The notes beneath the pieces were generated by a model. That model saw only the letters and a list, made by a program, of their open reading frames with translations, made no database searches and was not told the origin of the DNA. Source: Rhodocyclaceae bacterium (GTDB lineage Bacteria; Pseudomonadota; Gammaproteobacteria; Burkholderiales; CAIKXV01). From it: DNA of 64,000 nt. The stretch is taken from NCBI GenBank assembly GCA_020248265.1, contig JADCHX010000015.1, positions 1 through 64,000 of the forward strand. Reading direction: 5' to 3'. Both the position numbers and the translations under genes were made by a program. Below, piece after piece: positions 42,215 through 57,032 of the stretch; position 1 is the stretch's first letter; every line of letters begins with the position of its first letter.

Positions 42215-42961
42215 ATGCTCGCGATCATCGGAGGCTCCGGCCTCGGGAAGCTTGCCACGATCGAGGCGCCGCACCGGCGCGTGGTGCGCACACCCTATGG
42301 CGAACCCTCGGGCGCACTGACGTTCGGGCGCCTGTGCGGGCGCGACGTGGTGTTCCTGCCGCGCCACGGACATGGCCACACGATCGCGCCGCACGAGGTC
42401 AACTACCGCGCGAACATCTGGGCACTGCGCGAGGAGAACGTAGACGCGATCATTTCCGTTGCATCCGTCGGTGGCATCCGCGCAGACCTGGCGCCAGGCG
42501 TGCTCGCGGTACCGCACCAGATCATCGACTACACGCACGGCCGCCGCGGAACCTTCTTCGAGGGACCCGATCAGCCCGTCACGCATGTCGACTTCACCGA
42601 GCCCTACTGCCCGCAGCTGCGGGCGAGCCTGCTGGCAGCAGCGGCAGCCGCAGGCGAAGCGATGATTGCGGACGGTGTCTATGCGGTAACGCAGGGGCCG
42701 CGGCTGGAGACCGCTGCCGAGATCGACCGGCTCGAGCGCGACGGCGCCGACATGGTCGGCATGACCGGAATGCCCGAGGCCGCGCTGGCGCGCGAGCTCG
42801 GGCTTTCCTATGCGGCTCTCGCCGTGGTGGCCAACTTCGCCGCCGGCCGCGGCAACAGTGCGCATGCGATCGACTTGCACATCATCGGTGGCGTGCTTTC
42901 GGTGGCCATGCAGCGGGTCCAGCATATCCTCGACCGATGCGTGGAATGCCATGGTTCGTGA
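42215..42961 (+). CDS. S-methyl-5'-thioinosine phosphorylase
   Basis: This 248-residue trimeric nucleoside phosphorylase splits S-methyl-5'-thioinosine into hypoxanthine and 5-methylthioribose-1-phosphate. The phosphate-binding start IIGGSGL and [20 protein letters not shown], and [10 protein letters not shown], are shared with MTAP. The purine-binding loop reads [15 protein letters not shown] has Asp where the 6-amino group is bound, so Asn here suggests a 6-oxopurine substrate. With hpt it forms an MTA-derived hypoxanthine-to-IMP route. The def start lies within its last 11 bases. Confidence 0.88.
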
Positions 42962-43481
42962 CGTCCTGCGGATGGGAAACCCCGTGCTGCTGCAGGTCGC
43001 GCGGCCGGTCGATGCATTCGGTACGCCCGAGCTCGCGGCCCTGCTGCAGGACATGCGTGACACGATGGCCGCCCTCGATGGCGCAGGGCTTGCCGCGCCG
43101 CAGATCGGTATCTCGCTGCAGGTGGTGATCTTCGGCGTCGCGTCCAATCCGCGCTATCCCGACGCGGACGATGTGCCGTACACCGAACTGCTCAATCCGG
43201 TCCTGGAGCCTGCAGGCGAGGAAATCGAGGACGGATGGGAGGGCTGTCTGTCGGTGCCCGGCATGCGTGGCGTGGTGCCGCGCTGGAAGCATCTGCGCTA
43301 CCGCGGCCTGACCCCGTCGGGTGAGCCGGTCGATCGTACGGTGTCGGGCTTCCATGCGCGGGTGGTGCAGCACGAATGCGACCACCTGATGGGCATCCTC
43401 TATCCGATGCGCATCCGCGACCTGCGTCAGTTCGGGTTCAGCGAAGCCCTGTTCCCCGGCGAGGCCCTGGCGGACGACTAG
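42951..43481 (+). CDS. def: Peptide deformylase
   Basis: This 176-residue metallohydrolase removes the N-formyl group from new proteins. The three motifs are [10 protein letters not shown] (44-53), EGCLSVPG with the metal ligand Cys99, and QHECDH with His141, Glu142 and His145. A divergent tail follows motif 3. The ATG at 42951 overlaps the end of the MTIP gene; earlier starts lie inside that gene. No fmt gene adjoins it, so this may be an additional deformylase. Confidence 0.94.
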
Positions 43482-43501
43482 CATCGTCGTCCCGCGGCGG
43501 G

Positions 43502-43524
43502 CCAGGCACTGGCCTGGTGCCAGG
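43502..43524 (+). other. Overlapping palindromes upstream of the sigma-54-type promoter
   Basis: CCAGGC/GCCTGG (43502-43517, loop ACTG) and CCTGG/CCAGG (43513-43524) overlap. They lie about 70-90 bases before the predicted start of transcription, where activators of sigma-54 often bind. They could also be a weak 3' hairpin of def. Confidence 0.3.
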
Positions 43525-43566
43525 CAGCGTCGCCGCGCGCCGCACAGGATGCCTGTGTCGGTGCGG

Positions 43567-43582
43567 TGGCACGCTTTCTGCA
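43567..43582 (+). promoter_or_regulatory. Sigma-54 type -24/-12 promoter upstream of the glycan island
   Basis: TGGCACG (43567-43573), a four-base spacer and CTGCA (43578-43582) match the TGGCACG-N4-TTGCA consensus with one mismatch. The GG/GC pairs are at correct spacing. Transcription would start near 43593, about 97 bases before the first gene. Confidence 0.6.
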
Positions 43583-43689
43583 CTCGTCGTGTGCATGAAC
43601 TGCCATCTCGACATTTCCTGCCGACATCGCGCCACGCGTGGCAAGCCTTGCCGGTCCGGGCGGCAGCATGACGTCGCCGGAGCCGCGTC

Positions 43690-46188
43690 ATGAGCGCCGG
43701 GCCAACCCTGGCTGAAGCGGCCCTGCTGCACGATTCCGGCCAGTTCGACGCAGCGCGCCGCGCCTACCGTTCGATCCTCGACGCGCAGCCCGACAGCGCG
43801 CGGGTGCTGTACCTGCTCGGCCTGCTCGAGAAGGCCAGCGGTGACCGGGAACAATCCATGTCCTGCCTGCAGCAGGCGATCGCAGCGGATCCTATGCAGG
43901 CCGACGTGTGGATGGCGATCGGCGACCTGCATGCGGAGACCGGCGCCGATGCACTTGCGACCGAGGCATTCGAGCGTTGCGTCGCGCGTGCCCGCGGCAG
44001 CGCGCTCGGCTGGTTCAAGCTGGGCTTCGCGCAGCAGAAGCTCGAGCGCCATGCGGACGCCGAGAAGGCCTATCGCCGGGCGGTGAAACTGCAGCCGGTG
44101 TTCCCCGAGGCATGGTGCAATCTGGGCAACGAACTCGGTGCGCTGATGCGCAAAGACGACGCGATCGCCGCGCTGCGCCGCGCGGTTGCCCAGCGCCCTG
44201 CGTTCCCCGAAGCCTGGCGAAACCTCGGCGTCATCCTCGAAGCCGTCGGCCGGCGAGCGGAGGCACTCGACTGCTTCGAGCGAGCCTGCGAACAGCGGCC
44301 CGACGATGCCGATGCCCACTTCTGCCGGGCCGCTGCGCTCGCTGCGCTCGGTCGCGGCGTCGATGCGGTGGCCGCCTACGAGCGCGTGTTCGAACTGGCG
44401 CCTGCGCACGCTGGCGCCTACAACAACCTGGGCATCCTGTTCCTGGACGAGCATCTGCTCGACGATGCGCGCGCATGCTTCCTGTGCGCGCTCGATGCCG
44501 ACCCCGCCCACGCCGAAGCATTGAACAACCTCGGCAACGTGGACTTGCGCGAGCAGCGTTTCCCGGAGGCCGCCGAAGACTTCCGACGTGCCCTGGAGCT
44601 CTCACCGTCGTTCGTCGAGGCGCTCAATGGCGCCGGCCTCGCAGCGCAGGAACTCGGTCGAGCGCGGGACGCGGCATCGTCCTTCAGGAGCGCGATCGCG
44701 CTGCGCCCCGGTTTCGCGGAGGCGCATGCAAACCTGGCGATGACCTTAGTACAACTCGGCGATACAGCTGCGGCGCGGCAGACCTTCCTGCATGCGGCGG
44801 CGCTGTCGGACGACGCCACGCTGCGCCTGCGGGCAGCGACGCTGCTGCCCGCGATCATGGGCACGAAGGCCTCGATCGAGGCCGACCGCCAGCGCATCCG
44901 CGCCGACATGCAGTCGCTGGCCGCCGCGCCGCAAAGCGCGACCGAGGCCCGGGTGATGAAGTACCTCGATCCGCCGTTCTACTTCGCCTATCGTGGGTGG
45001 AACAATCGCCAGACGCTGTCCGACCTGGCCGCCCTCTACCTGAAGATGGCGCCCGAGCTCGGCTGCGAATCGCCGCATGTCGGGGCACCGCGTACCCGCT
45101 CTCGCGTGCGGGTCGGATTCGTGTCGCAGTATTTCTTCCGGCATTCGGTCGGTATGTCGTTCACGCGGCTGATCGCCGGTCTGGCTGCCGATCCAAGGCT
45201 GGAGATCGTCGGCATCTCGCTCGGGCACAAGGACGACGAGGTGACGACGAGCATCCGGTCGAATTGCGCCGGCTGGATCTCGCCACGCGGCAACCTGTCC
45301 TCGATACGCGCGGCGATCGCCTCGCTCGACCTGGATGTCCTGTTCTACACCGACATCGGCATGGATCGGATCACCTATCCGCTCTCGTTGTCGCGCCTTG
45401 CCCGGGTGCAGTGCCTCAGCGGTGGCCATCCCGAGACCAGCGGTAGCCCGAACATCGACTACCTGCTGTCCAGCCGCTGGCTGGAGACGCCAGCCGCACA
45501 GGCCTTCTACAGCGAGCAACTGGTGCTGCTGGACGCCTACAACAGCGTGCTCACCCGGCCGGCCGTCATGCCCGACCTGGCGAGCCGGGCCCAGCTGGGG
45601 CTAGCCGGCGAGCATGTGTACCTGTGCCCGGTAAAGTTGCACAAGCTGCACCCGGATTTCGACGTGGCCCTGGCTGCCCTGATCGAGCGCGACCCGAAGG
45701 CCTGCGTGGTGCTGTTCGAGGACGAGCGACAGGCGCACTGGCGTGTGCTGACCGAGGCGCGCCAGCGCGAGACCATGGGTGCCGCCGCAGGCCGGGTACG
45801 GTTCGAGCCCTGGGCGGATGCGCGGACCTTCCAGTCCTGGCTGCAGGCAGCCGATGCGGTCCTCGACTGCTGGCCTTTCGGAATGGGCACGACCGCCATC
45901 AACGCGCTCGGGCAGGCGATACCGGTGCTGACCCTGCCGTCCGAACGCCTGTCGGGGCGCGGTACCCAGGCGTTGCTGCGCATGATGGAAATCGACTGGC
46001 TGGTGGCCGCCGACGTCGACGATTTCGTTTCGCGCGCGGTGACGCTGGCCGCGGAACCGTCGCTGCGCCAGCAGCTCGCTCAAGATTTGCGGGCCCGGTC
46101 CGATGTTCTGTTCCGACAGGCGGACTGCGCAGCGGAAATGGCCGGATTCCTGGTCGAAAGCGTGGCCCGAAAGGAGGCAGCAGCATGA
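43690..46188 (+). CDS. TPR protein with GT41 (SPINDLY/OGT-like) glycosyltransferase domain
   Basis: This 832-residue cytosolic protein has about ten tetratricopeptide repeats in residues 1-385, where proteins bind. A bi-lobed GT41 domain runs from about 470 (RVRVGFVSQYFF) to the end. The first-lobe loop reads GGHPETSGSPNIDYLLSS (about 577) and the nucleotide-sugar region is DCWPFGMGTTAINALGQ (about 729). GT41 enzymes attach sugars from UDP- or GDP-donors to Ser/Thr; this branch has a His-Pro in place of the Tyr-Pro of OGT. It is the first gene of the island. Its stop overlaps the DegT start, and it lies 11 kb before fliC, so flagellin is a likely target. Confidence 0.82.
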   Translation: MSAGPTLAEAALLHDSGQFDAARRAYRSILDAQPDSARVLYLLGLLEKASGDREQSMSCLQQAIAADPMQADVWMAIGDLHAETGADALATEAFERCVARARGSALGWFKLGFAQQKLERHADAEKAYRRAVKLQPVFPEAWCNLGNELGALMRKDDAIAALRRAVAQRPAFPEAWRNLGVILEAVGRRAEALDCFERACEQRPDDADAHFCRAAALAALGRGVDAVAAYERVFELAPAHAGAYNNLGILFLDEHLLDDARACFLCALDADPAHAEALNNLGNVDLREQRFPEAAEDFRRALELSPSFVEALNGAGLAAQELGRARDAASSFRSAIALRPGFAEAHANLAMTLVQLGDTAAARQTFLHAAALSDDATLRLRAATLLPAIMGTKASIEADRQRIRADMQSLAAAPQSATEARVMKYLDPPFYFAYRGWNNRQTLSDLAALYLKMAPELGCESPHVGAPRTRSRVRVGFVSQYFFRHSVGMSFTRLIAGLAADPRLEIVGISLGHKDDEVTTSIRSNCAGWISPRGNLSSIRAAIASLDLDVLFYTDIGMDRITYPLSLSRLARVQCLSGGHPETSGSPNIDYLLSSRWLETPAAQAFYSEQLVLLDAYNSVLTRPAVMPDLASRAQLGLAGEHVYLCPVKLHKLHPDFDVALAALIERDPKACVVLFEDERQAHWRVLTEARQRETMGAAAGRVRFEPWADARTFQSWLQAADAVLDCWPFGMGTTAINALGQAIPVLTLPSERLSGRGTQALLRMMEIDWLVAADVDDFVSRAVTLAAEPSLRQQLAQDLRARSDVLFRQADCAAEMAGFLVESVARKEAAA

Positions 46189-47375
46189 ACCCCATCCCGG
46201 TGCTCAAGCCCGACATGCCGTCGGTGGACGACCTGTTGCCCTACCTGCGGCGGATCGACGAGGCGCAGCAGTACGCCAACTTCGGGCCCCTGTGCCTGGA
46301 GCTCGAGAAACGGCTGTCTGCCGACTGCGCCGCACTGAGCGAGCAGCCGGTGGCCCTGACCACCGTCGCCAACTGCACCGTCGGCCTGCAACTCGCGCTG
46401 ATGGCGAGCGTCGACCGTCCGCGGGTGAAGGTGCTCGTGCCTTCGCTGACGTTTCCCGGCACGGTATCCGGCATCCTCCAGGCCGGGTTCGAGCCGGTTC
46501 TCGCCGACGTCGACCCGGCGCGCTGGGTGCTGACACCGGAGATCGCGCGCGCTGCGATGAACCGGGTGCGCGGCATCCGGGCGATCATGCCGGTGGCCGC
46601 GTTCGGCGGTGCACTCGACGCAGACGCCTGGGATCAGCTGACCGAGGAGACCGGCGTCCCTGTCGTGATCGATGCCGCAGGAGCCTTCGGCAACCAGCGC
46701 ATCGGCCGCCATACCGTGGTCGCCTACAGCATGCATGCGACCAAGGCGCTGGGTGCCGGGGAGGGCGGCTTCGTGGTCGCGCGCGATGCCGAGATCGTCG
46801 CGCGGGTGCGACGCCTGTCCAATTTCGGCTACATGTCTGCGGGTGGCCTGATCTCGGATATCGGGGTCAACGGCAAGATGAGCGAGTATGCCGCCGCCGT
46901 CGGGCTGGCCGCCCTCGATCGCTGGCCCGCGATCAGCGCGGCGCGGCGCCGGCTGATGGCGACCTACCGGCAGGCGCTGACGGATACCTGCCCGGAGATC
47001 GTGCTGCAGGAGCGTCCGGCCGGCGGCGTCTATTCGCTGGGCGTGGTGCGCTTGCCAGACCGGCTGCGCGCGGAAACCGTGGCGGAGTTCCTTGCATCGC
47101 GCGGTATCGGCTCGCGCCGCTGGTACTGCCCGGGCATTTATGCTCACCCCGCATTCCTGTCGCTGACGCAGGCCGATGACCATGTGCTCGTCAAGCACCT
47201 GGACCAGCATCTGCTCGGGTTGCCGTTCCACCTCGAGATGAGCCTGGCCGACATCGAGCGGGTGACCGGTGCGCTGCAGGCCATACTCTCGCTGGGCGGG
47301 CGTGGCCGTACCGGTGTCGCCAAGGCTACGCGCAGCAGCAGTTCGCGCGGCGCGCACCTGCGCGCGGTGGGCTAG
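46185..47375 (+). CDS. DegT/DnrJ/EryC1-family sugar aminotransferase
   Basis: This 396-residue PLP enzyme transfers an amino group to a keto-sugar nucleotide. The cofactor-binding aspartate is Asp163 (VIDAAGAFG) and the PLP lysine is Lys187 in SMHATKALGAGEGG, the DegT pattern. The length is typical. AAGGAGG lies 8 bases before the ATG, which overlaps the GT41 stop. It probably makes an amino sugar for the glycan. The keto-sugar substrate and its dehydratase are not encoded in the window. Confidence 0.88.
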   Translation: MNPIPVLKPDMPSVDDLLPYLRRIDEAQQYANFGPLCLELEKRLSADCAALSEQPVALTTVANCTVGLQLALMASVDRPRVKVLVPSLTFPGTVSGILQAGFEPVLADVDPARWVLTPEIARAAMNRVRGIRAIMPVAAFGGALDADAWDQLTEETGVPVVIDAAGAFGNQRIGRHTVVAYSMHATKALGAGEGGFVVARDAEIVARVRRLSNFGYMSAGGLISDIGVNGKMSEYAAAVGLAALDRWPAISAARRRLMATYRQALTDTCPEIVLQERPAGGVYSLGVVRLPDRLRAETVAEFLASRGIGSRRWYCPGIYAHPAFLSLTQADDHVLVKHLDQHLLGLPFHLEMSLADIERVTGALQAILSLGGRGRTGVAKATRSSSSRGAHLRAVG

Positions 47376-47377
47376 CG

Positions 47378-48049
47378 ATGGCCTCGCGTCAGCCGCTGGT
47401 GGTGTTCGGCGCCGGCCAGATCGCGGAGGTGGCATGGCACTGCTTCGCGCACGATTCGGACTACGAGGTGGTCGGATTCACGGTCGACCCGGAGTATCTC
47501 GCTGCCGACACCCTGCTCGGCCTGCCGGTGCTGCCGTATGCGCAGGCGATGGCGTGCTGGCCAGCCGCGACCCATGCGATGTTCGTGGCGATCGCCTACG
47601 GGCGTCTGAACCAGGCACGCGCCGGCACGGTGGCAAGGGTGCAGGCCGATGGCTACCGCTGCGCGAACTACATCAGCTCGCGTGCGCGGGTCGCTGGCGA
47701 AGTGGTGCCGGACAGCAATACCTTCGTGATGGAACTGAACAACGTGCAGGCGTTCTCGCGCCTCGGACGCGATGTATGGCTGTGGGCGGGCAACCATATC
47801 GGACACCACTCGACGATCGGCGACCACTGCTTCCTCGCCTCGCATGTGGTCGTGTCCGGATCGGTCGAGGTCGGCGAGTCGAGCTTCATCGGCGTCAACG
47901 CGACGATTCGTGACAATGTCCGGATCGGCGCGCGCAACGTGATCGGTGCCGGCGTGGTGATCCTCGCCGACACGAAGGACGCCGAGGTGTACGTCGGCCC
48001 GAAGACCGAAGCCTCGCGCGTGCCCAGCCACCGGCTGCGCGGCATCTGA
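47378..48049 (+). CDS. NeuD/PglD-like acyltransferase with left-handed beta-helix
   Basis: This 223-residue protein has an N-terminal Rossmann-like part (VVFGAGQIAEVAWHCF, the PglD_N domain) and hexapeptide repeats in residues 125-205 (HIGHHSTIGDHCFLASHVVV; GANVxIG-like units). PglD-type proteins N-acetylate amino sugars; its position 3 bases after the aminotransferase gene suggests it acts on that product. The catalytic His lies in the GNHIGHHSTIGDH segment. Acyl donor and sugar are unproven. Confidence 0.86.
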   Translation: MASRQPLVVFGAGQIAEVAWHCFAHDSDYEVVGFTVDPEYLAADTLLGLPVLPYAQAMACWPAATHAMFVAIAYGRLNQARAGTVARVQADGYRCANYISSRARVAGEVVPDSNTFVMELNNVQAFSRLGRDVWLWAGNHIGHHSTIGDHCFLASHVVVSGSVEVGESSFIGVNATIRDNVRIGARNVIGAGVVILADTKDAEVYVGPKTEASRVPSHRLRGI

Positions 48050-48072
48050 GTGGAGCGACCCTGGATACCCTG

Positions 48073-49146
48073 ATGCCATCCCCGATCACGCTCGCGTCGG
48101 ACAGCCCTGTTGCAGCCGAGGCCACGGCCACCGGCTGGCACTGGCGCAAACTCGGGCAGGTGTTCGACCCGCGTGCCCATCCCGAGTGGGCCGGCAGCCA
48201 TGCTCAGGTTCCGACGGTGCTCGTGATGACGGACCGCCTGCGCGTGTACTACGCCGGCCGCGGCGCGGACGGCCGAAGCTTCCCGACCTTCATCGACGTC
48301 GACCGCGACGATCCGACACGGTTGCTCGACTGCCACCGCTCGCCCGTGCTCGGGCTCGGCGCGCCGGGCACCTTCGACGACGAGGGCGTGATGCCGGCCT
48401 GGGTGCATCAGCGGGAAGGCCGGGTGTGGATGTACTACAGCGGCTGGAACCGGCGGCTGACCGTGCCGTACCACAACGCGACCGGGCTCGCGGTCAGCGA
48501 CGATGGTGGGCTTACGTTCCAGCGCGCCTACCAGGGTCCGGTGCTCGACCGTACGCCGGAAGAGCCGTACCTCGCCGTCACCCCCTGGATCGAATGCGAG
48601 CCGGCGGGGCAGGACGCCGACGCACGGCCAGCCTGCGGTGCGCGCTGGCAGGCGTGGTACATCTCCGGCGAACGCTGGGTGGAAGTCGGCGGCCGCTACG
48701 AGCCGGTCTACGTGATCCGGCACGCGCGCTCCGACGACGGCGTGCACTGGCAGCGCAGGGCGGTCACTTGCGTCGAGCAGGCCCATCCGCTGGAGGCGTT
48801 CTCGCATCCGACCGTGCTGCGCGAGGGCGGGCGCTACCACCTCTGGTACTGCCATCGGCACAGCCTCGACTACCGGGACGGCAGCGGAGCCTACCGGATC
48901 GGCTACGCATGGTCCGACGACGGCGAACGCTTCGTGCGCAGCGATGCGCAGTCGGGCATCTCGCCCTCGACCGACGGCTGGGACTCGACCATGACCTGCT
49001 ACCCGTCGACGGTGCGCGTCGACACCCGCACATATCTTTTCTACAACGGCAACGGCTTCGGGCAGAGCGGCATCGGCGTCGCGATCCTCGAAGGCCGGCT
49101 GCCCGGGCGGCCCTGGGCCGGCACCGGGCCGACAGCGGAAGGCTGA
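48073..49146 (+). CDS. Cytosolic beta-propeller, GH43/GH32-like protein
   Basis: This 357-residue protein is rich in Trp/Tyr blades of the five-bladed propeller type. Recurrent elements are LRVYYAGRG, VWMYYSGWN, WQAWYISGE, YHLWYCHRH and TYLFYNGNG, each closing a blade, with acidic residues in TFDDEGVMP. No signal peptide is present, which is odd for a secreted glycosidase. It may be an intracellular trimming or transfer enzyme acting on the activated glycan, or a scaffold. It lies between the acetyltransferase and a methyltransferase and shares their direction. Confidence 0.75.
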   Translation: MPSPITLASDSPVAAEATATGWHWRKLGQVFDPRAHPEWAGSHAQVPTVLVMTDRLRVYYAGRGADGRSFPTFIDVDRDDPTRLLDCHRSPVLGLGAPGTFDDEGVMPAWVHQREGRVWMYYSGWNRRLTVPYHNATGLAVSDDGGLTFQRAYQGPVLDRTPEEPYLAVTPWIECEPAGQDADARPACGARWQAWYISGERWVEVGGRYEPVYVIRHARSDDGVHWQRRAVTCVEQAHPLEAFSHPTVLREGGRYHLWYCHRHSLDYRDGSGAYRIGYAWSDDGERFVRSDAQSGISPSTDGWDSTMTCYPSTVRVDTRTYLFYNGNGFGQSGIGVAILEGRLPGRPWAGTGPTAEG

Positions 49147-49151
49147 ACCAG

Positions 49152-49925
49152 ATGACGCTCCACGGAAGCACGCGCACCAGCAGCGAAGGCACCTCGGCGG
49201 ACGAACAGCAGCTCGGCCAGCGGCAGCAGCTCGAACGGATGTTCCGGGAGTCGCCGCTGCCGCCCGAGCACCTGATGTTCAACCTCGGCATGTACACCCG
49301 CAGCTCGGTGCTGGTGAAGTTCCTGTTCATGAACGACATCTACCAGCGCATCCGGCACCTGCCCGGGGTGCTGATCGAACTGGGCGTCTGGTGGGGCCAG
49401 AACCTGGTGCTGCTGGAAAACCTGCGGGCTATCCATGAACCCTTCAACAAGCAGCGCATGATCGTCGGTTTCGATACGTTCTCCGGTTATCGCACGTTCA
49501 CCGACAAGGACATCCGCGGCGACGTGATGAGCGACGGTACCTATGCGACGCCTCCGGGATACCGCCACTACCTCGCAATGCTGCTCGAGGCCCACGAGGG
49601 CGCGAACGCGTTCGGCCACCAGCGCGGCAACCACCGGCTGGTGGAGGGCGATGCCACCCAGACCGTCCCGAACTATTTCGCCGAGCATCCGGAAACGCTG
49701 GTCGCGATGGCGTTCTTCGACATCGGTACCTACCTGCCGACGGTCGAGGCGCTCAAGGCGATGAAGTCGTCGTTGATGCCCGGCAGTGTGCTGGTGTTCG
49801 ACGAACTGACCTGGGCCGGCGCGCCCGGCGAGGCGATTGCCTTCAAGGAAGTGTTCCGGGACATCGACTACACGATCGAGAAGGCGGCTCTGTATCCGTC
49901 CAAGGCGATCGTCACCGTAAAGTGA
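49152..49925 (+). CDS. TylF/macrocin-O-methyltransferase-like SAM enzyme
   Basis: This 257-residue protein has the class I methyltransferase-like region VLIELGVWWGQNLVLLENL near residue 75, where the glycine of the usual E/DxGxxxG motif is partly kept, and GFDTFSGYRTF nearby. The end has VLVFDELTWAGAPGEAIAF, the metal-binding Asp region of the TylF and CmcI type of O-methyltransferases. These act on sugar hydroxyls of natural products. The start ATG lies 5 bases after the stop of the previous gene. Sugar O-methylation is the most likely role; the family also includes hydroxylase-like members. Confidence 0.78.
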   Translation: MTLHGSTRTSSEGTSADEQQLGQRQQLERMFRESPLPPEHLMFNLGMYTRSSVLVKFLFMNDIYQRIRHLPGVLIELGVWWGQNLVLLENLRAIHEPFNKQRMIVGFDTFSGYRTFTDKDIRGDVMSDGTYATPPGYRHYLAMLLEAHEGANAFGHQRGNHRLVEGDATQTVPNYFAEHPETLVAMAFFDIGTYLPTVEALKAMKSSLMPGSVLVFDELTWAGAPGEAIAFKEVFRDIDYTIEKAALYPSKAIVTVK

Positions 49926-49935
49926 GGAACAGAGC

Positions 49936-50769
49936 ATGCCCGACATGACCGAACCCGTGGTCGTTGCGCAGCACTGCCTGCGCGCAGGGCTGACCGTCGA
50001 CCGCTTCTGCGCAGCGATGGCAACGCGCGGATGGCTGGTCATCGATCGCTTCGTCGACGACGACCTCGTATGCCGGATGCGCGCCGACCTCGACCGGGCC
50101 TACGCCACGTGCCGTCGTCTGCAGGTGGCCAACGGCATCGCGCTCGACACGGAAGGCACGCTGCACCATCTCGTCGGCCAGGGCGAGTCGTTCCTCGAGT
50201 TCATCGACCGGCTGGCACCGATCGTCCCGCACCTCGAGACCCACTTCGGCGGGCCGTTCATCCTGAACTCGTTCGGGGGCAACATCCTGCGCGCGAGCCC
50301 GTCCTACGCGAGTGCCATCCACCGCGACGTGCGCACGTGTTCGCGCGAACTGCCGCTGCTGCTCAACACACTGCTGATGCTCGACGACTTCACCGTGCAC
50401 AACGGCGCGACGCTGATGATGACCGGCAGCCACCTCGATTGCCCGGACCGGCCGTCCGACCAGGCATTCGCCGCGCGCGCCGAGGCCGCGACCGGCCGTG
50501 CCGGCAGCCTGCTCGTGTTCGATTCGAACCTATGGCACGCCGCTGGCGTGAACAACACGGCCGCCGCGCGTCGCTCGGTCACGCCGATGTTCAGCCGTCC
50601 GCTGGTAAAGCCGCAGTTCGACCACCCGCGCGCGCTCGGCTACGAGCGCATGGACACCCTGTCCGAACTGCAGCGCCAGGTGCTCGGGTACTACTCGCGC
50701 ATTCCCGCGACGCTCGAGGAGTGGTACCAACCGCCGCAGCGCCGCATGTACCGCCCCGGGCAGGGATGA
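49936..50769 (+). CDS. Phytanoyl-CoA dioxygenase (PhyH)-family oxygenase, copy 1
   Basis: This is a 277-residue non-heme Fe(II)/2-oxoglutarate oxygenase. The iron triad is visible as HRD in SAIHRDVRTC (near residue 127) and the distal His in NLWHAAGVN (near 200). The 2-oxoglutarate Arg follows (AARRSVTP). PhyH proteins hydroxylate fatty-acyl, sugar or other metabolites. In a glycan island the target may be a sugar or its acyl group. It lies 10 bases after the methyltransferase gene and 4 before the next one. Confidence 0.84.
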   Translation: MPDMTEPVVVAQHCLRAGLTVDRFCAAMATRGWLVIDRFVDDDLVCRMRADLDRAYATCRRLQVANGIALDTEGTLHHLVGQGESFLEFIDRLAPIVPHLETHFGGPFILNSFGGNILRASPSYASAIHRDVRTCSRELPLLLNTLLMLDDFTVHNGATLMMTGSHLDCPDRPSDQAFAARAEAATGRAGSLLVFDSNLWHAAGVNNTAAARRSVTPMFSRPLVKPQFDHPRALGYERMDTLSELQRQVLGYYSRIPATLEEWYQPPQRRMYRPGQG

Positions 50770-50773
50770 GACG

Positions 50774-51568
50774 ATGAAACGCGACCTCCGGCTCGAGCAC
50801 CAGGACACCGGCGCACGCAAGTACGCGTATGCCTTCGACTACATCCACCGGGAGTACATGTGGCGTGCGTTCCAGCCGTTCCTGCCGCGCCATGCCGGCG
50901 CGCGGGCGCTGGAGATGGGCTGCTACCGCGGCGAGTTCACGCGCACGCTGGCTGGGGCCTTCGACGACCTCACCGTGCTGGAAGGGGCTGGGGACCTGGT
51001 CGAGGCGGCACGCCGGGCCGTGCCCGCCCATGTGCGGTTCGTGCACTCCCGCTTCGAGGACTGGAACCCGCCCGCCGACGCCGGGTTCGATGCGGTGTTC
51101 CTGATGCACACGCTCGAGCATGTCGACGAGCCGGTGCCCTTGCTCGAGCGCATAGGCCGCTGGCTCGCCCCTGGGGGGCGATTGTTCCTGGTGGTACCCA
51201 ATGCCAATGCGCCGTCGCGCCAGATCGCCGTCAAGATGGGGCTGATCTCGCACAACACCGCGGTGACCGCCGGCGAGTACGAGCACGGTCACCGGCGCAC
51301 CTACGCGTTCGATACGCTGGAGCACGAGGTGCGGCTGGCCGGGCTCGACGTGACGCACCGTGCGGGCGTGCTGTTCAAGCCACTGGCGAACTTCCAGATG
51401 GATCGTGCGCTCGAGGCAGGGATCATCGATCGCGCCTACCTGGAGGGCTGCTACCAGCTCGGCATGGTCCATCCGGACCTCTGCGCGAGCATCTTCCTGC
51501 TTTGCAGTCCGGGCTCCGGTGGCCTGGGCGAACCGGTCGGCCCTGTCGGCAAGGGCAACCTGTCCTGA
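50774..51568 (+). CDS. Class I SAM-dependent methyltransferase
   Basis: This 264-residue methyltransferase has the SAM-binding glycine loop in ALEMGCYRGEFTRTL (near residue 40), the acidic ribose contact in LTVLEGAG, and the post-motif segment DAVFLMHTLEHV with the methyltransf_11-type HTLEH. It contains PGGRLFLVVPNANAPSRQ. It is likely an O- or C-methyltransferase for a glycan precursor. It lies between the two PhyH oxygenases and is co-directional. Confidence 0.86.
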   Translation: MKRDLRLEHQDTGARKYAYAFDYIHREYMWRAFQPFLPRHAGARALEMGCYRGEFTRTLAGAFDDLTVLEGAGDLVEAARRAVPAHVRFVHSRFEDWNPPADAGFDAVFLMHTLEHVDEPVPLLERIGRWLAPGGRLFLVVPNANAPSRQIAVKMGLISHNTAVTAGEYEHGHRRTYAFDTLEHEVRLAGLDVTHRAGVLFKPLANFQMDRALEAGIIDRAYLEGCYQLGMVHPDLCASIFLLCSPGSGGLGEPVGPVGKGNLS

Positions 51569-51578
51569 GGATTCGACG

Positions 51579-52451
51579 ATGACACCCGCTCTCCACGCCG
51601 AAAGCCCATGCGCAGCCGACGCCGGTTCCGACTGGGTTGCCTCCTATCGCGCCAGCGGGCTGGCCGTGATTCCGGGTGCGCTGCCGGTGGATCGCCTAGA
51701 CCGCATCGCGCGCGACATGCACTGCGCCTACGCACGGCAGCTCGAGCGGCTGGGCCGGCCGGCCGCGGCCTGGAGCGGGCGTGCCTCGCTGCTGCAGAAC
51801 ATGGAGCAACTGCTGCAAGCCGACGTGAAGGCATACCTCGCAACGACCCGGCACAGCGCGCGGCTCGCTTCCCTGCAGCAACTGGTCGTATCGGATGCCG
51901 TGCTGTCGATCGGCTCGGCGCTCGGGCTGCAGGCGGCTTCGTTGCCCACCTCGCCGGTGCTGCACGTGATGGGCGACACGCTGCGCATCCCCGGCGGCTA
52001 TCACGGCGTCGCCACGCACCAGGATTGGCCCGTTGTCCAGGGCTCGCTCGACGCGGTCACGATGTGGTTTTCGCTGTTCGACGTGACGCCGCGCACTTAC
52101 CCGCTGCAGTTGATCCCGGGCAGCCACCGGCGCGGCGTCTGGCCCTCGCGGATCACCGAACACACCAGTGAGGTGGATCCGTCCTGCTACAGCGAGGACG
52201 ACTTCATCACGGCGACCGTATCGCGCGGCGACCTGCTGGTGTTCACCGGTTTCACCGTGCATCGCACCGCATTGAAGGATTGTGCCGGCTTGCGCATTGC
52301 CGCCAGCATGCGCTACGAGAACACCGCCGAGGCTACCTTCGTCGAGCGCAGCTATCCGTGTGCCTACCAGCGGACGGTCATCCGCGAGGCGCCATTACCC
52401 GGGTTTCCGTCGATCGCTCAGGTCGACCGCGCGATCGGTCTGACCGACTGA
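51579..52451 (+). CDS. Phytanoyl-CoA dioxygenase (PhyH)-family oxygenase, copy 2
   Basis: This 290-residue protein shares the Fe(II)/2-oxoglutarate oxygenase fold with copy 1 but is not a recent duplicate. The HxD motif is in GVATHQDWPVV (near residue 147), the distal His is in FTVHRTALKD (near 227), and LRIAASMRYEN follows with the 2-oxoglutarate Arg. The ATG at 51579 begins 10 bases after the methyltransferase stop. Two oxygenases suggest two separate hydroxylation or oxidative steps on the same product. Confidence 0.84.
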   Translation: MTPALHAESPCAADAGSDWVASYRASGLAVIPGALPVDRLDRIARDMHCAYARQLERLGRPAAAWSGRASLLQNMEQLLQADVKAYLATTRHSARLASLQQLVVSDAVLSIGSALGLQAASLPTSPVLHVMGDTLRIPGGYHGVATHQDWPVVQGSLDAVTMWFSLFDVTPRTYPLQLIPGSHRRGVWPSRITEHTSEVDPSCYSEDDFITATVSRGDLLVFTGFTVHRTALKDCAGLRIAASMRYENTAEATFVERSYPCAYQRTVIREAPLPGFPSIAQVDRAIGLTD

Positions 52452-52462
52452 CGCCCCGGTGA

Positions 52463-54484
52463 TCACCGCGCGGCTGCCAGCCAGTCGCGCCAGATCGCAC
52501 GCAGGCGCGCTTCGAAGTTGACCGCAAAGGCGGCGGTGTCCCATTGCGGCGTCGCAGCCAGGTGGCTGGCAAGGGTTGCGCGCTGGCGGCGCAGGTAGTC
52601 GACGTCGCTGGCCATCGCTTCCGCGCGCGCGATGTAGTCGTCGACATCGCGGGCGATGGAGTCGTTAAGCCCCGCACCGACCAGGATCGAGGCGGTGTTC
52701 CGGCTGCGCCACTCGTCGCCGCCGATCGCGACCACCGGCACGCCCTGCCAGAGGGCGTTGATGGAGGTGGAGCCGCTGCTGTAGGGGAAGGTATCGATCG
52801 CGACATCGACCTGCGCATACAGTCGCTTCATCGCGTCGTAAGGGGATGGCCCTTCGAGGATCAGGCGGTCGCCGCCGATGCCAAGCGCGCGGAACGCTGC
52901 GGCGACCCGTTCGCGTTCGGCGGGCATGCGCAGGTTCGCGCTCTTGAGGTACAGCTTCGCATGCCTCACCCGATGCAGCAGGCGCGCCCACGCGTGCATC
53001 ACTTCGGGATTGACCTTGAAGAAGTCCCCGAAGCAGGAAAACGTCGGATAGCCGTTGCGCTCGACCGGCGGCGCCGTGGTGGCCGGTGGATCGCCCATGT
53101 CCCAGGCCGAGATGGTGCCGTTGGGCATGTTGAAGATCTTCTCGACGTACAGGCTGGCATCCTCGGGCGGTACGCTGTAGTCGTCGGCGATCAGGTAGTT
53201 GTAGGCCTTCGCCCCGACCGTCGCGGTCAGGTTGAACCAGTTGACCTGCACCGGCGCGGGCTGCCGCAGCATCGCGCCGAAGAAGTTGGGCGTGCGCAGC
53301 CGGCCGTTGATGTCGAGCAGGATGTCGATCCGGTCGGCCCGGACCCGGTCGAAGAAGGCGGTGTCGCCGATGCCGTGCACGTCCCGGTACTGGTCGACCA
53401 GCGCTCGCAGCACCGGCCCGCCATTGCCGAAGTTGTAGCAGTACAGCTCGATGCGCTGACGGTCGTACTGGCGGAAGAACGGATACAGGGTCTGCCGGCC
53501 GATCATGCTGTCGATGTAGTCGCCGACCAGCCCGACGCGCAGGCGCCGCTCGGGGTCACGGTCATTAGGAAACGAGGCTGGGTCGGGCAGTCGCTCCTCC
53601 ACAGCGTGCGCCGAGGCCCATGCGCGGCTTTCCGCGAAGTAGTCATGCGCCGAATGCCGGGGACTCGCCAGGTAGCACTTGAGCAGGAAATTGTGGTGGT
53701 CCACCGTGTTTGCGCGCGCGAGGTCTGCCCTGGCCATCGCCTCGGCGTCGTCGATCAGCCCACCGTGATAGAGGCGGTCGCGTTCAAGCGCATCGGGTTG
53801 CATGCGGGACAGGGCCACGCGCTGCAGTTCCGCGACGGCCTGCCCGCTGGCACCGTTGCGCGCCGCGCGTTCGAGCAGAGGCAGCGCAGCGTCGGACAGA
53901 CCGCGGTCCATCACCGCCAGCGACAGGTTCAGCAGCAGTTCTGCGTTGTCGGGGTTTGCGACGAGCCCATGTGCGAGCGTGTCCTGGGCGGCAGCCAGGT
54001 CGTGCGCACGATAGTGGATCCGTCCGAGCCCGCTCGCGGCCTGGAAGCACCCGGGGGACAGCCGCTCGGCTTCCGCATAGCAGGCGCGAGCTTCGTCCTC
54101 ACGCTCGAGCGAAAGCAACACGTTGCCGAGGTTTCCGAATGCCTCGGGATAGGACGGCCGATGGTGCACGGCCGCGAGGTACGACTGCAGGGCACCTTCG
54201 AGGTCGCCCTCGGTCATGCGCACGCTGCCCAGGTTGTTGTGTGCTTCGGCGGATGCGGGGCGCAGCGCGAGGGCTGCTTCGATCAGACGCCGCGCGAGCG
54301 CGGCTTCGCCAAGATTCAGCGCAGCGACGCCCATCAGGTGCACGGCGTCGAAGTCGCGCGGATCGGCCTCGTACAACTGCTGGTAGACCTTGATCGCGTC
54401 CCGGAAATGGCCTTCACCGTGCAGCTGCATCGCACGGGCGAGCAGGCTTCGATCGGCATCGCCGGGTGAACGCGGATCGCTCAT
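52463..54484 (-). CDS. TPR protein with GT41 (O-GlcNAc-transferase-like) domain, second type
   Basis: This 673-residue protein has about six TPRs in residues 1-235 and a GT41 catalytic domain from about 315 (RRLRVGLVGDYIDS) to the end. Its motifs are closer to canonical OGT than those of the first copy: FSCFGDFFKVNPEVMHAW, then IDTFPYSSGSTSINALWQG (near 565) and GDEWRSRNTASIL. It is on the opposite strand to the rest of the island and convergent with the second PhyH gene. It may add a different sugar or modify another protein. ATG 54484 is chosen; the open frame above it has no TPR pattern. Confidence 0.86.
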   Translation of the reverse strand: MSDPRSPGDADRSLLARAMQLHGEGHFRDAIKVYQQLYEADPRDFDAVHLMGVAALNLGEAALARRLIEAALALRPASAEAHNNLGSVRMTEGDLEGALQSYLAAVHHRPSYPEAFGNLGNVLLSLEREDEARACYAEAERLSPGCFQAASGLGRIHYRAHDLAAAQDTLAHGLVANPDNAELLLNLSLAVMDRGLSDAALPLLERAARNGASGQAVAELQRVALSRMQPDALERDRLYHGGLIDDAEAMARADLARANTVDHHNFLLKCYLASPRHSAHDYFAESRAWASAHAVEERLPDPASFPNDRDPERRLRVGLVGDYIDSMIGRQTLYPFFRQYDRQRIELYCYNFGNGGPVLRALVDQYRDVHGIGDTAFFDRVRADRIDILLDINGRLRTPNFFGAMLRQPAPVQVNWFNLTATVGAKAYNYLIADDYSVPPEDASLYVEKIFNMPNGTISAWDMGDPPATTAPPVERNGYPTFSCFGDFFKVNPEVMHAWARLLHRVRHAKLYLKSANLRMPAERERVAAAFRALGIGGDRLILEGPSPYDAMKRLYAQVDVAIDTFPYSSGSTSINALWQGVPVVAIGGDEWRSRNTASILVGAGLNDSIARDVDDYIARAEAMASDVDYLRRQRATLASHLAATPQWDTAAFAVNFEARLRAIWRDWLAAAR

Positions 54485-54642
54485 GCAGGCTCGGGATACG
54501 CTTTGGTGGGGTGCGCCGGTTCCGGAGTGAAACCCGCAGCGCGAACAGGCATTATCGAGCATCGCGCGGACGTTGCGAAGCCTGCGTCTGCAGCGCGTTG
54601 CATAGCCGGACAGCGGTTGTACGGCTTCCAGAGGGCAGGGCA

Positions 54643-55290
54643 ATGACCACTGTTGCGATCATGCAGCCGTACTTCTACCCGTACGCCGGGTACTTCCGGC
54701 TGTTCTCGCGCGCGGATCTGTTCGTGGTTTACGACTGCGTGCAGTTCCCGCGCCGCGGCTGGGTGCACCGGAATCGTCTGACGGGGGCCGGCGGGCAACT
54801 GCAGTGGCTGACCCTCCGGCTCGCGCATGCTGCGCAGGACACGGCCATCCGCGACATGCGTCTCGAACCCTTCGCGATGGAGCAGCTCGCCGCCGACCTG
54901 CGGCGCTTTCCTGCGTTCGATCGGGCGGAGCCTGAGCTGCGCGCCCGGCTGCCGCTGCTCGAAGGCGGGGCGACGCTCGTCGACTATCTCGAACGCAACC
55001 TGCAGGCAGTGCTCGACTGTCTCGGGATTGCCTGCCGGATGGTCCGCTCATCGAGCCTCGACATCGATCCGAGCCTGCGCGGGCAGCAGCGGATCCTCGC
55101 CATCGCGCGCCGGCTCGGTGCCGATCGATACCTGAATGCGCCGGGGGGGCGCGACCTGTACGAGTCCGACGCTTTCGCACGCGACGGGATCCGGCTCGAA
55201 TTCCTGGAGCCGGCGGCCGGCAGCCAGGCGAGCCTGCTGGAGCGCCTGTGCAGCGAGGAGCCCGAGTCGATCCGCGCCGACGTGCGCTGA
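54643..55290 (+). CDS. WbqC-family protein
   Basis: This 215-residue protein has the WbqC signature at its start (VAIMQPYFYPYAGYFRLFSR, then FVVYDCVQFPRRGWVHRNR). WbqC homologues occur in O-antigen and other glycan clusters, and some have been linked to amide or lactam formation on amino sugars; the activity here is uncertain. It is divergent from the second GT41 gene across 158 bases and ends 263 bases before the flagellin gene. It is the last member of the island. Confidence 0.86.
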   Translation: MTTVAIMQPYFYPYAGYFRLFSRADLFVVYDCVQFPRRGWVHRNRLTGAGGQLQWLTLRLAHAAQDTAIRDMRLEPFAMEQLAADLRRFPAFDRAEPELRARLPLLEGGATLVDYLERNLQAVLDCLGIACRMVRSSSLDIDPSLRGQQRILAIARRLGADRYLNAPGGRDLYESDAFARDGIRLEFLEPAAGSQASLLERLCSEEPESIRADVR

Positions 55291-55420
55291 AGGCTCTTGC
55301 AGGATGTCCAGCCGTCCACCCGCGCGGCGTTCGCTCAAGTTTCGCCGTCCTGTGCCGTTACCAGCGACGACAAAGAACTGTTCCGTCCTGTTCCCGGCCC
55401 ACCTCAAGCGACTGATTCGC

Positions 55421-55553: not shown

Positions 55554-57032
55554 ATGTCCCAGGTAATCAACACCAACATCGCTTCGCTGAACGCACAGCG
55601 AAACCTCACGACGTCCCAGAGCAATCTGGCGACCGCGCTGCAGCGCCTGTCCTCGGGTCTGCGCATCAACTCGGCAAAGGATGATGCCGCCGGTCTCGCG
55701 ATCTCCGACCGCATGACCTCGCAGATCCGCGGCCTCGACCAGGCCCGCCGCAACGCGAATGACGGCATCTCGCTGTCGCAGACGGCCGAGGGCGCGCTGG
55801 CGCAGTCCGGCGAGATCCTGCAGCGTATCCGCGAGCTGGCGATCCAGTCGGCGAACGCGACGAACTCGGCCAGCGATCGCCAGTCGCTGAACTCGGAGGT
55901 GAGCCAGCTGGTGACCGAGGTCACCCGGATCGCCAATGCGACCACCTTCAACGGCCTGAAGATCCTCGACGGGAGTTACCAGGGCCAGCAGTTCCAGGTC
56001 GGCGCCGATGCCAACCAGACGATCGGCGTATCGATCCAGGGCGCGGCAGCCAAGGACCTGGCCAACAATTCCGTGGCCGGTCAGGGTACCGGCGCGACCG
56101 GCCTGGGCGGCGCCTCCGCGGGTGCCAATGCGGCGCCGGCGGGCAACGGCGTCGCGGCGCAGACCGTGACCGTGTCGGGCTCGAACGGTTCGGCGAACGT
56201 CAGCGTTGCCGCCGACGACCAGGCGTCGACCATCGCCGCAGCGGTCAATGCGCAGTCCGGTGCGACCGGCGTCAGCGCCCGTGCGTCGACTTCCGCGACC
56301 CTGGCGGTCGCCAACGTGGGCAACGTGTCGTTCAGCCTGAACGGTGGCGGTACCGCGACCACGATCAACGCGACGATCCCGGCCGGCGGTAACCTCGGCG
56401 CGGTTGTCACCGCAGTCAACCAGGTGTCGGGCCGTACCGGTGTCACCGCGACCCTCAATGCTGCAGGCAATGCGCTGACCTTCAGCCAGGCCGACGGCAA
56501 GGACATCGTGGTCGAGAACTTCCTCAATTCGGCTGGTGGTACCGCGACCTTCACCGGATCGAACACGACTGCGGCGACGCTGACCAGCGGCGGTACCGAC
56601 TCGAGCCGTGCCTCGGGTACGGTCAGCTTCACCTCGGATGCCGGCTTCACCGTAGCGTCTGACGCGGCCAACGGCGTGGTTGCCGCTGCCGCGAACACTG
56701 CAGTGGGATCGACCGCGGCCGATCTGACCAGCGTCGACATCTCGACGGCGACTGGCGCCAACACCGCCATCGGCATCGTCGATGCGGCGCTGAACCAGAT
56801 CAACAAGTCGCGTGCGCAACTCGGCGCGGTGCAGAACCGGTTCGGAAACACCATCGCCAACCTGCAGACAACCTCGGAGAACCTGAGTTCCGCGCGCAGC
56901 CGGATCCGCGACGCGGACTTCGCATCGGAGACGGCGTCACTGACCCGCGGCCAGATCCTGCAGCAGGCCGGCACCGCGATCCTGGCCCAGGCCAACTCGC
57001 TGCCGAACAACGTGCTGTCGCTGCTGAGGTAA
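55554..57032 (+). CDS. fliC: Flagellin
   Basis: This 492-residue protein is the filament subunit, exported through the flagellar type III system. The N-terminal D0/D1 region ([18 protein letters not shown] ... [12 protein letters not shown], residues 1-165) and the C-terminal D1/D0 region (residues 405-492, ending [16 protein letters not shown]) are conserved. The middle (175-400) is Ala/Thr/Ser/Gly/Val-rich, with two flagellin_IN-like units near 210-330. It is surface exposed and rich in possible O-glycosylation sites. AGGAG lies 8 bases before the ATG and a sigma-28 promoter precedes it. Confidence 0.98.

Follow-up and report, generated by a model that had tools for sequence, protein, structure and literature searches.

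A probable flagellin glycosylation island with an apparently undescribed eight-gene, two-oxygenase sugar module

Background

Enterobacterial flagellin islands, in the part of the account by De Maayer and Cowan (2016, PMC4875605) drawn on here, combine GT41 glycosyltransferases with DegT, NeuD and methyltransferase genes, mostly without sialic-acid genes; the same part of that paper also reports flagellin methylation islands that carry methyltransferases only. In Pseudomonas syringae the flagellin bears a modified viosamine, which caps two rhamnoses (mVio-Rha-Rha; PMC3927599). FlmG of Caulobacter is a soluble flagellin O-glycosyltransferase composed of TPR and GT-B domains, of which the TPR domain binds flagellin (PMC7591256). 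In Dickeya zeae WH1, an insert between fliA and fliC with genes for a SAM methyltransferase, a glycosylase, a WbqC protein, a DegT protein and a protein with a methyltransferase-regulatory domain has been listed without interpretation (PMC9650423).

Here we analyze a related locus in a 64,000-nucleotide stretch of DNA from a Rhodocyclaceae bacterium (contig JADCHX010000015.1; hereafter the window). An earlier note, made from the sequence letters alone, had proposed that the genes between def and fliC encode a new tailored glycan on flagellin.

Results and Discussion

Gene content of the island

Between def and fliC there are ten intact ORFs (43690–55290; Table 1), and our Pfam and NCBIfam profile searches confirmed the families that the earlier note had assigned to them. 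The first eight genes are spaced by about −4 to +24 bp, in agreement with the tight packing described before, but the ATGA overlaps, which had been reported in the plural, are limited to the gt41a/DegT pair. The strand of gt41b is opposite to that of the other island genes. Among the ten island proteins, profile searches revealed no exporter, polymerase, Wzx/Wzy or undecaprenyl-phosphate sugar transferase, and no members of the vioS, vioR or acp-type acyl-supply families.

Table 1. Features in and around the def-fliC interval (positions in the window)
Feature	Position	Strand	Remark
def (peptide deformylase)	42954..43481	+	left boundary gene; adjoins fliC in the island-less congener G004
whole island, present/absent unit	43480..55395 (about)	.	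from comparison with the G004 empty site
candidate sigma-54 promoter GTGGCACGCTTTCTGCA	43566..43582	+	upstream of gt41a
gt41a, TPR-GT41 transferase, XcOGT-like	43690..46188	+	likely flagellin transferase
DegT/DesI-type sugar aminotransferase	46185..47375	+	PLP lysine motif SMHATKALGAGEGG present
NeuD/PglB/VioB-family N-acyltransferase	47378..48049	+	TIGR03570 above cut-off; perosamine N-acetyltransferase-like
cytosolic five-bladed beta-propeller, GH130/GH43-like	48073..49146	+	no match in Pfam
mtA, CalS11-like sugar O-methyltransferase (TylF family)	49152..49925	+	E 2.6e-51 to CalS11
phyA, PhyH Fe/2OG oxygenase	49936..50769	+	HRD...H triad present
mtB, SAM methyltransferase (class I)	50774..51568	+	hallmark gene of wider module; E 2.1e-78 to PDB 2p7h
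phyB, second PhyH Fe/2OG oxygenase	51579..52451	+	HQD...H triad present
gt41b, SPINDLY/OGT-like TPR-GT41, accessory	52463..54484	-	remnants only in G003 and G010
WbqC-family protein	54643..55290	+	PF08889
fliC sigma-28 promoter, CTAAAG-N14-GCCGTTAA	55420..55447	+	one mismatch
fliC flagellin, predicted acceptor	55554..57032	+	then flaG 57133, fliD 57586, fliS 59668

Both transferases match PF13844 above the cut-off and exhibit the TPR + GT41 GT-B architecture, with matches in the PDB. The closest resemblance of gt41a is to XcOGT, with which both the active-site His and Lys align, while gt41b resembles SPINDLY and the bacterial TPR protein 5djs and retains the Lys of XcOGT, with the His not aligned. 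No island copy whose assembly reaches gt41a lacks this gene. In two congeners (G003 and G010) gt41b is reduced to remnants and the assembled sugar genes persist; we therefore regard gt41a as the core transferase and gt41b as an accessory one. The number of transferases within the genus ranges from at least one to three, the third being a GT41-like gene that precedes gt41a in G009 (L020 1261-2961) and is 26% identical to gt41b. The window genome also encodes a third GT41 elsewhere (G000:C4:403330-404370, L032; 724 aa frame), at a distance of about 40 kb from rmlBDAC and surrounded by numerous genes for nucleotide-sugar enzymes.

The middle part of FliC is indeed rich in Ser and Thr, as noted before (62 in residues 151–400, about 25%), but this cannot be used as evidence of glycosylation, since the proportion is no different in G004, which lacks the island (64 of 250). 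The sigma-28 promoter of fliC is near-perfect and is kept in the congeners, including the island-less one. Upstream of gt41a, the sigma-54 candidate (TGGCACG-N4-[CG]TGC) is conserved in five congeners within a region that has otherwise diverged, and RpoN is encoded in the window genome; however, the genome-wide count of this motif is at the control level (17 and 17), and hence we rank the promoter as a candidate only.

A present/absent unit within the genus

In our data the genus is represented by MAGs alone. All congeneric genomes assembled across either junction contain the island between def and fliC, with the sole exception of G004. In G007, G010, G009, G008 and G005 the gene order is the same as in the window, the proteins are 55–98% identical, and the island adjoins def, the fliC operon, or both, depending on where the contigs end; in G003 and G002 it is seen as far as their contigs reach. 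Conservation of content and order at this level of protein identity indicates that the grouping of the island genes is not due to chance.

The genome of G004 (100% complete) has the order hpt-mtnP-def-fliC-flaG-fliD-fliS, with about 280 bp from def to fliC and no island, and orthologues of degT and mtB were found nowhere in it. When the joined flanks were compared with G004, homology extended up to about position 43479 and resumed from about 55396, so that the unit amounts to about 11.9 kb; the position beside fliC given in the earlier note holds, but the extent given there (43690–55290) is too small. The locus displays two characteristic features of flagellin glycosylation islands: it is an insert at the flagellin locus that carries glycosyltransferases and sugar enzymes, and its presence at a fixed site varies among relatives, as the empty junction of G004 reveals.

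In the host-gene tree G004 falls among the island bearers, although its exact position is only partly resolved. No supported fork sets the trees of island and host genes in conflict, in keeping with vertical inheritance of the island within the genus, and this distribution favours an old acquisition in the genus followed by loss in G004, to the extent that the partly resolved position of G004 allows. A recent foreign import was considered on the basis of base composition and set aside, as there is no such signal (67.9% GC in the island vs 68–69% in the flanks). In G037, a member of another family of the same order, a smaller version of the island occupies the equivalent site, with def on one side and fliS-fliD on the other. 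A record titled as a Bordetella parapertussis MAG (L035) contains island proteins 88–96% identical to those of the window genus, and its name looks wrong.

The predicted sugar pathway

The DegT protein has its nearest relatives among DesI-type 4-aminotransferases, with the PLP lysine motif intact, and the NeuD/VioB protein (TIGR03570, 172 bits vs a cut-off of 161) resembles perosamine N-acetyltransferase. A DesI/VioA-type aminotransferase together with a VioB-family acyltransferase is the pair that characterizes viosamine pathways. mtA resembles CalS11 (E 2.6e-51), which is a TDP-rhamnose 3'-O-methyltransferase. In genomes sampled from the class there are mtA-like paralogues (about 33–44% identical) with no phyA or mtB within about 1.5 kb, and thus mtA alone is not a marker of the gene set. 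The solved relative of mtB (2p7h, E 2.1e-78) is annotated only as a "hypothetical protein". The HxD...H motif is kept in both PhyH proteins; a sequence search of the PDB with phyB returned no informative relative. The structure model of the propeller exhibits a five-bladed GH130/GH43-like fold. The WbqC protein yielded a confident model (pLDDT 92), which has no match in the PDB at E<=0.001 and weakly resembles nucleotidyltransferase and tRNA-synthetase folds. Its conserved motif MQPYFxPYxGY loosely recalls the HxGH sites of nucleotidyltransferases.

The window genome encodes rmlB-rmlD-rmlA-rmlC elsewhere (C4:360–364 kb). A genome-wide search with PF03102 (98% complete genome) revealed no NeuB-family synthase, which bears out the earlier statement that pse/leg sialic-acid genes are absent and led us to reject a Pse/Leg pathway of the FlmG/Maf type. 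Taken together, the gene set points to a dTDP-4-amino-4,6-dideoxyhexose that would be acylated, methylated and oxygenated, with the donor and the order of steps predicted from the enzyme families.

We consider it likely that the locus is a flagellin glycosylation island whose GT41 enzyme adds a modified amino sugar. RmlA and RmlB would make dTDP-4-keto-6-deoxyhexose, which DegT would aminate, and the NeuD/VioB-type enzyme would N-acylate the resulting amine. mtA and mtB could methylate the sugar or the acyl group, and the two PhyH oxygenases could hydroxylate the sugar, perhaps creating hydroxyls that are methylated later; the GH130-like propeller and WbqC may catalyze additional reactions of this pathway. 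The TPR domain of gt41a would bind cytosolic FliC, and the enzyme would add the activated sugar to its Ser/Thr residues before export through the flagellum, with the dispensable gt41b possibly extending or supplementing the glycan. This reading builds on the genes and their families, their conservation, the present/absent unit, the obligate eight-gene module (see below), the absence of NeuB and the presence of rmlBDAC, from which we infer the donor, the step order and the attachment to FliC. More tentatively, the eight sugar genes may represent an undescribed nucleotide-sugar pathway acting on a 4-amino-6-deoxy sugar, which two Fe/2OG oxygenases would oxidise and two methyltransferases would cap, the propeller and WbqC catalyzing new steps; the product would be passed to flagellin by a dTDP-using GT41 or to polysaccharides by a GT2. 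The GT41 donors known to us are UDP- or GDP-sugars.

It is also conceivable, though less likely, that the flagellin glycan is based on rhamnose or a hexosamine and that the DegT product is only a terminal decoration, like the viosamine of P. syringae. The similarity of mtA to a TDP-rhamnose O-methyltransferase, the presence of rmlD and rmlC, and the possibility that two GT41s add two sugars, for which mVio-Rha-Rha is a precedent (PMC3927599), fit such a structure. However, the island contains no rhamnosyltransferase of a known family, and the degeneration of gt41b in two congeners that keep all assembled sugar genes suggests that the pathway can be retained without a second transferase.

An obligate module beyond the genus

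A profile search with mtB over 84,980 species genomes yielded 80 loci, whose neighbours we examined; 56 were usable, i.e. they either contained flagellar genes or had flanks of 7 kb or more in each direction. The module, neuD-propeller-mtA-phyA-mtB-phyB-wbqC-degT, emerged at the 16 loci outside the window genus that possess its mtA: neuD, the propeller, phyA, mtB, phyB and wbqC accompany it in 16/16, and DegT is in view at 15/16. The eight genes form an obligate module, which is common to alpha-, beta- and gammaproteobacteria and, with both oxygenases included, is apparently undescribed.

In 20/56 usable loci, mtB has flagellar genes at a distance of about 10 kb or less. Outside the window genus the figure is 15/51, against a rough chance expectation of under 1% (20 kb in a total of about 4 Mb per genome), and supported tree branches force at least 7 changes between the flagellar and non-flagellar labels. 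A GT41 is present at 18/20 flagellar loci vs 6/36 others (Fisher P about 9e-8); after relatedness was removed, the link was not significant (5 independent pairs, sign test median p 0.25). The most informative counterpart is L101, from a distant gammaproteobacterial MAG, with motA-motB-cheY, degT, wbqC, neuD, phyB, propeller, mtA, phyA, mtB, two GT41s, two fliC, fliD and fliS; it matches the whole gene list of the window in a different order, with about 33–61% identity per sugar gene. Smaller versions adjoin flagellin genes in several other lineages.

The module is also found away from flagella. In Herbaspirillum the neighbours of all eight genes include RmlC, an NTP-transferase and a C-methyltransferase as well as GT2 and GT4 genes; in Pseudomonas the set has a GT2 at its side, and flagellin genes are absent from the vicinity. 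A simpler cassette (DegT-WbqC-propeller-propeller-GNAT-mtB) has a wide distribution, which includes plasmids of Rhizobium and Tateyamaria and Bacteroidota genomes, and the wider cassette also occurs in Nostoc records, where mtB and phyA accompany DegT and WbqC with no flagellin in view; to our knowledge, Bacteroidota and Nostoc are groups without flagella. Between versions of the module, both the DegT lineage and the type of N-acyltransferase (NeuD or GNAT) have been swapped. In Phenylobacterium (L048 4544-17788) the module lies between PseG and PseI genes together with a GT41, i.e. two flagellin-type sugar pathways share one locus. In Betaproteobacterium UKL13-2 (L041 339-17659) ffh and rimM/trmD flank the module and three GT41-like genes, and the visible neighbourhood contains no flagellar genes.

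The module appears to make a general sugar, of which flagellin would be one recipient, and the recipient is probably set by the partner transferase, GT41 or GT2. Since the same module occurs with GT2 away from flagella, the sugar genes alone are no proof of a flagellin target. The Herbaspirillum and Pseudomonas loci, together with the wider cassette on Rhizobium plasmids and in Bacteroidota and Nostoc records, could even suggest that in the window, too, the sugar is destined for a polysaccharide of the cell surface, such as O-antigen or EPS, or for a surface protein other than flagellin, the adjacency of fliC being incidental. We regard this as improbable: at these loci no GT41 adjoins the module, in contrast to the island of the window, which encodes two TPR-GT41s but neither an exporter nor a polymerase, and the flagellin-side position recurs in many lineages, far more often than the chance estimate given above. 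Direct action of the methyltransferases and oxygenases on flagellin amino acids rather than on a glycan is less probable by far. Islands devoted to flagellin methylation provide a parallel in the consulted part of PMC4875605, but mtA falls together with a nucleotide-sugar methyltransferase, and mtB and phyA accompany DegT and WbqC even where no flagellin is in view, including in Nostoc.

A flagellin glycan added by GT41 remains our preferred reading, and the proposal of the earlier note is strengthened by the conserved fliC-side position, the empty site in G004, the independent full copy in L101 and the GT41-flagellar link, but the module cannot be called flagellin-specific. The note had suggested a search for the same set in other genomes, to be found near fliC, and had named clusters far from flagellar genes and next to O-antigen or capsule export genes as counter-evidence; L101 provides the former, and the loci in Herbaspirillum, among polysaccharide-type genes, and in Pseudomonas are in part examples of the latter.

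These results delimit a distinct set of genes for a highly decorated sugar, which would go to flagellin or to polysaccharides according to the partner transferase, and they place WbqC and GH130-like propellers, two poorly understood families, in a concrete pathway. The chemistry is open to experiment, given the pair of island-bearing and island-less congeners and the existence of culturable bacteria with the non-flagellar module, namely Herbaspirillum robiniae HZ10 and Pseudomonas japonica DSM 22348.

Comparison with described systems

The earlier note could not match the combination of activities in this island to a known system. This was overstated, because islands with GT41, DegT, NeuD and methyltransferases (in the part of PMC4875605 consulted) and a modified viosamine (PMC3927599) have been published; for the double oxygenation and the propeller it still holds. 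Among open-licence papers we found none that joins flagellin, glycosylation and phytanoyl-CoA dioxygenase, and oxygenase-tailored flagellin glycans seem unreported in that literature.

Caulobacter FlmG uses pseudaminic acid (PMC7591256), unlike the window genome, which lacks a NeuB-family synthase. The viosamine island of P. syringae shares with the window a DegT aminotransferase, a VioB-family acyltransferase and an O-methyltransferase, and its product is a modified 4-amino-4,6-dideoxyhexose on flagellin; in contrast to the window, it is located away from fliC, encodes an ACP, a ketoacyl synthase and a reductase for the hydroxybutyryl group, has a transferase, VioT, of 1,173 aa, and is listed with no oxygenases (PMC3927599). 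The Dickeya zeae WH1 insert, with its "glycosylase" taken as the propeller, corresponds to the DegT-WbqC-propeller-methyltransferase variant found in our survey, and it too is beside fliC, but neither PhyH nor a CalS11-like methyltransferase is mentioned for it (PMC9650423). The enterobacterial GT41 islands, as far as the consulted part of PMC4875605 describes them, are likewise variable inserts at the flagellin locus with a SPINDLY-type GT41, DegT, NeuD and SAM methyltransferases, and rmlB is in many cases encoded at another place in the genome, as it is for the window. PhyH oxygenases, a propeller and WbqC are not described in that part of the paper, and the window differs further by its two separate GT41s and by insertion between def and fliC. 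We conclude that the locus is probably a flagellin glycosylation island, of a type already known, and that its eight-gene sugar module, which includes two oxygenases, is apparently undescribed, the structure of the glycan being predicted from its genes.
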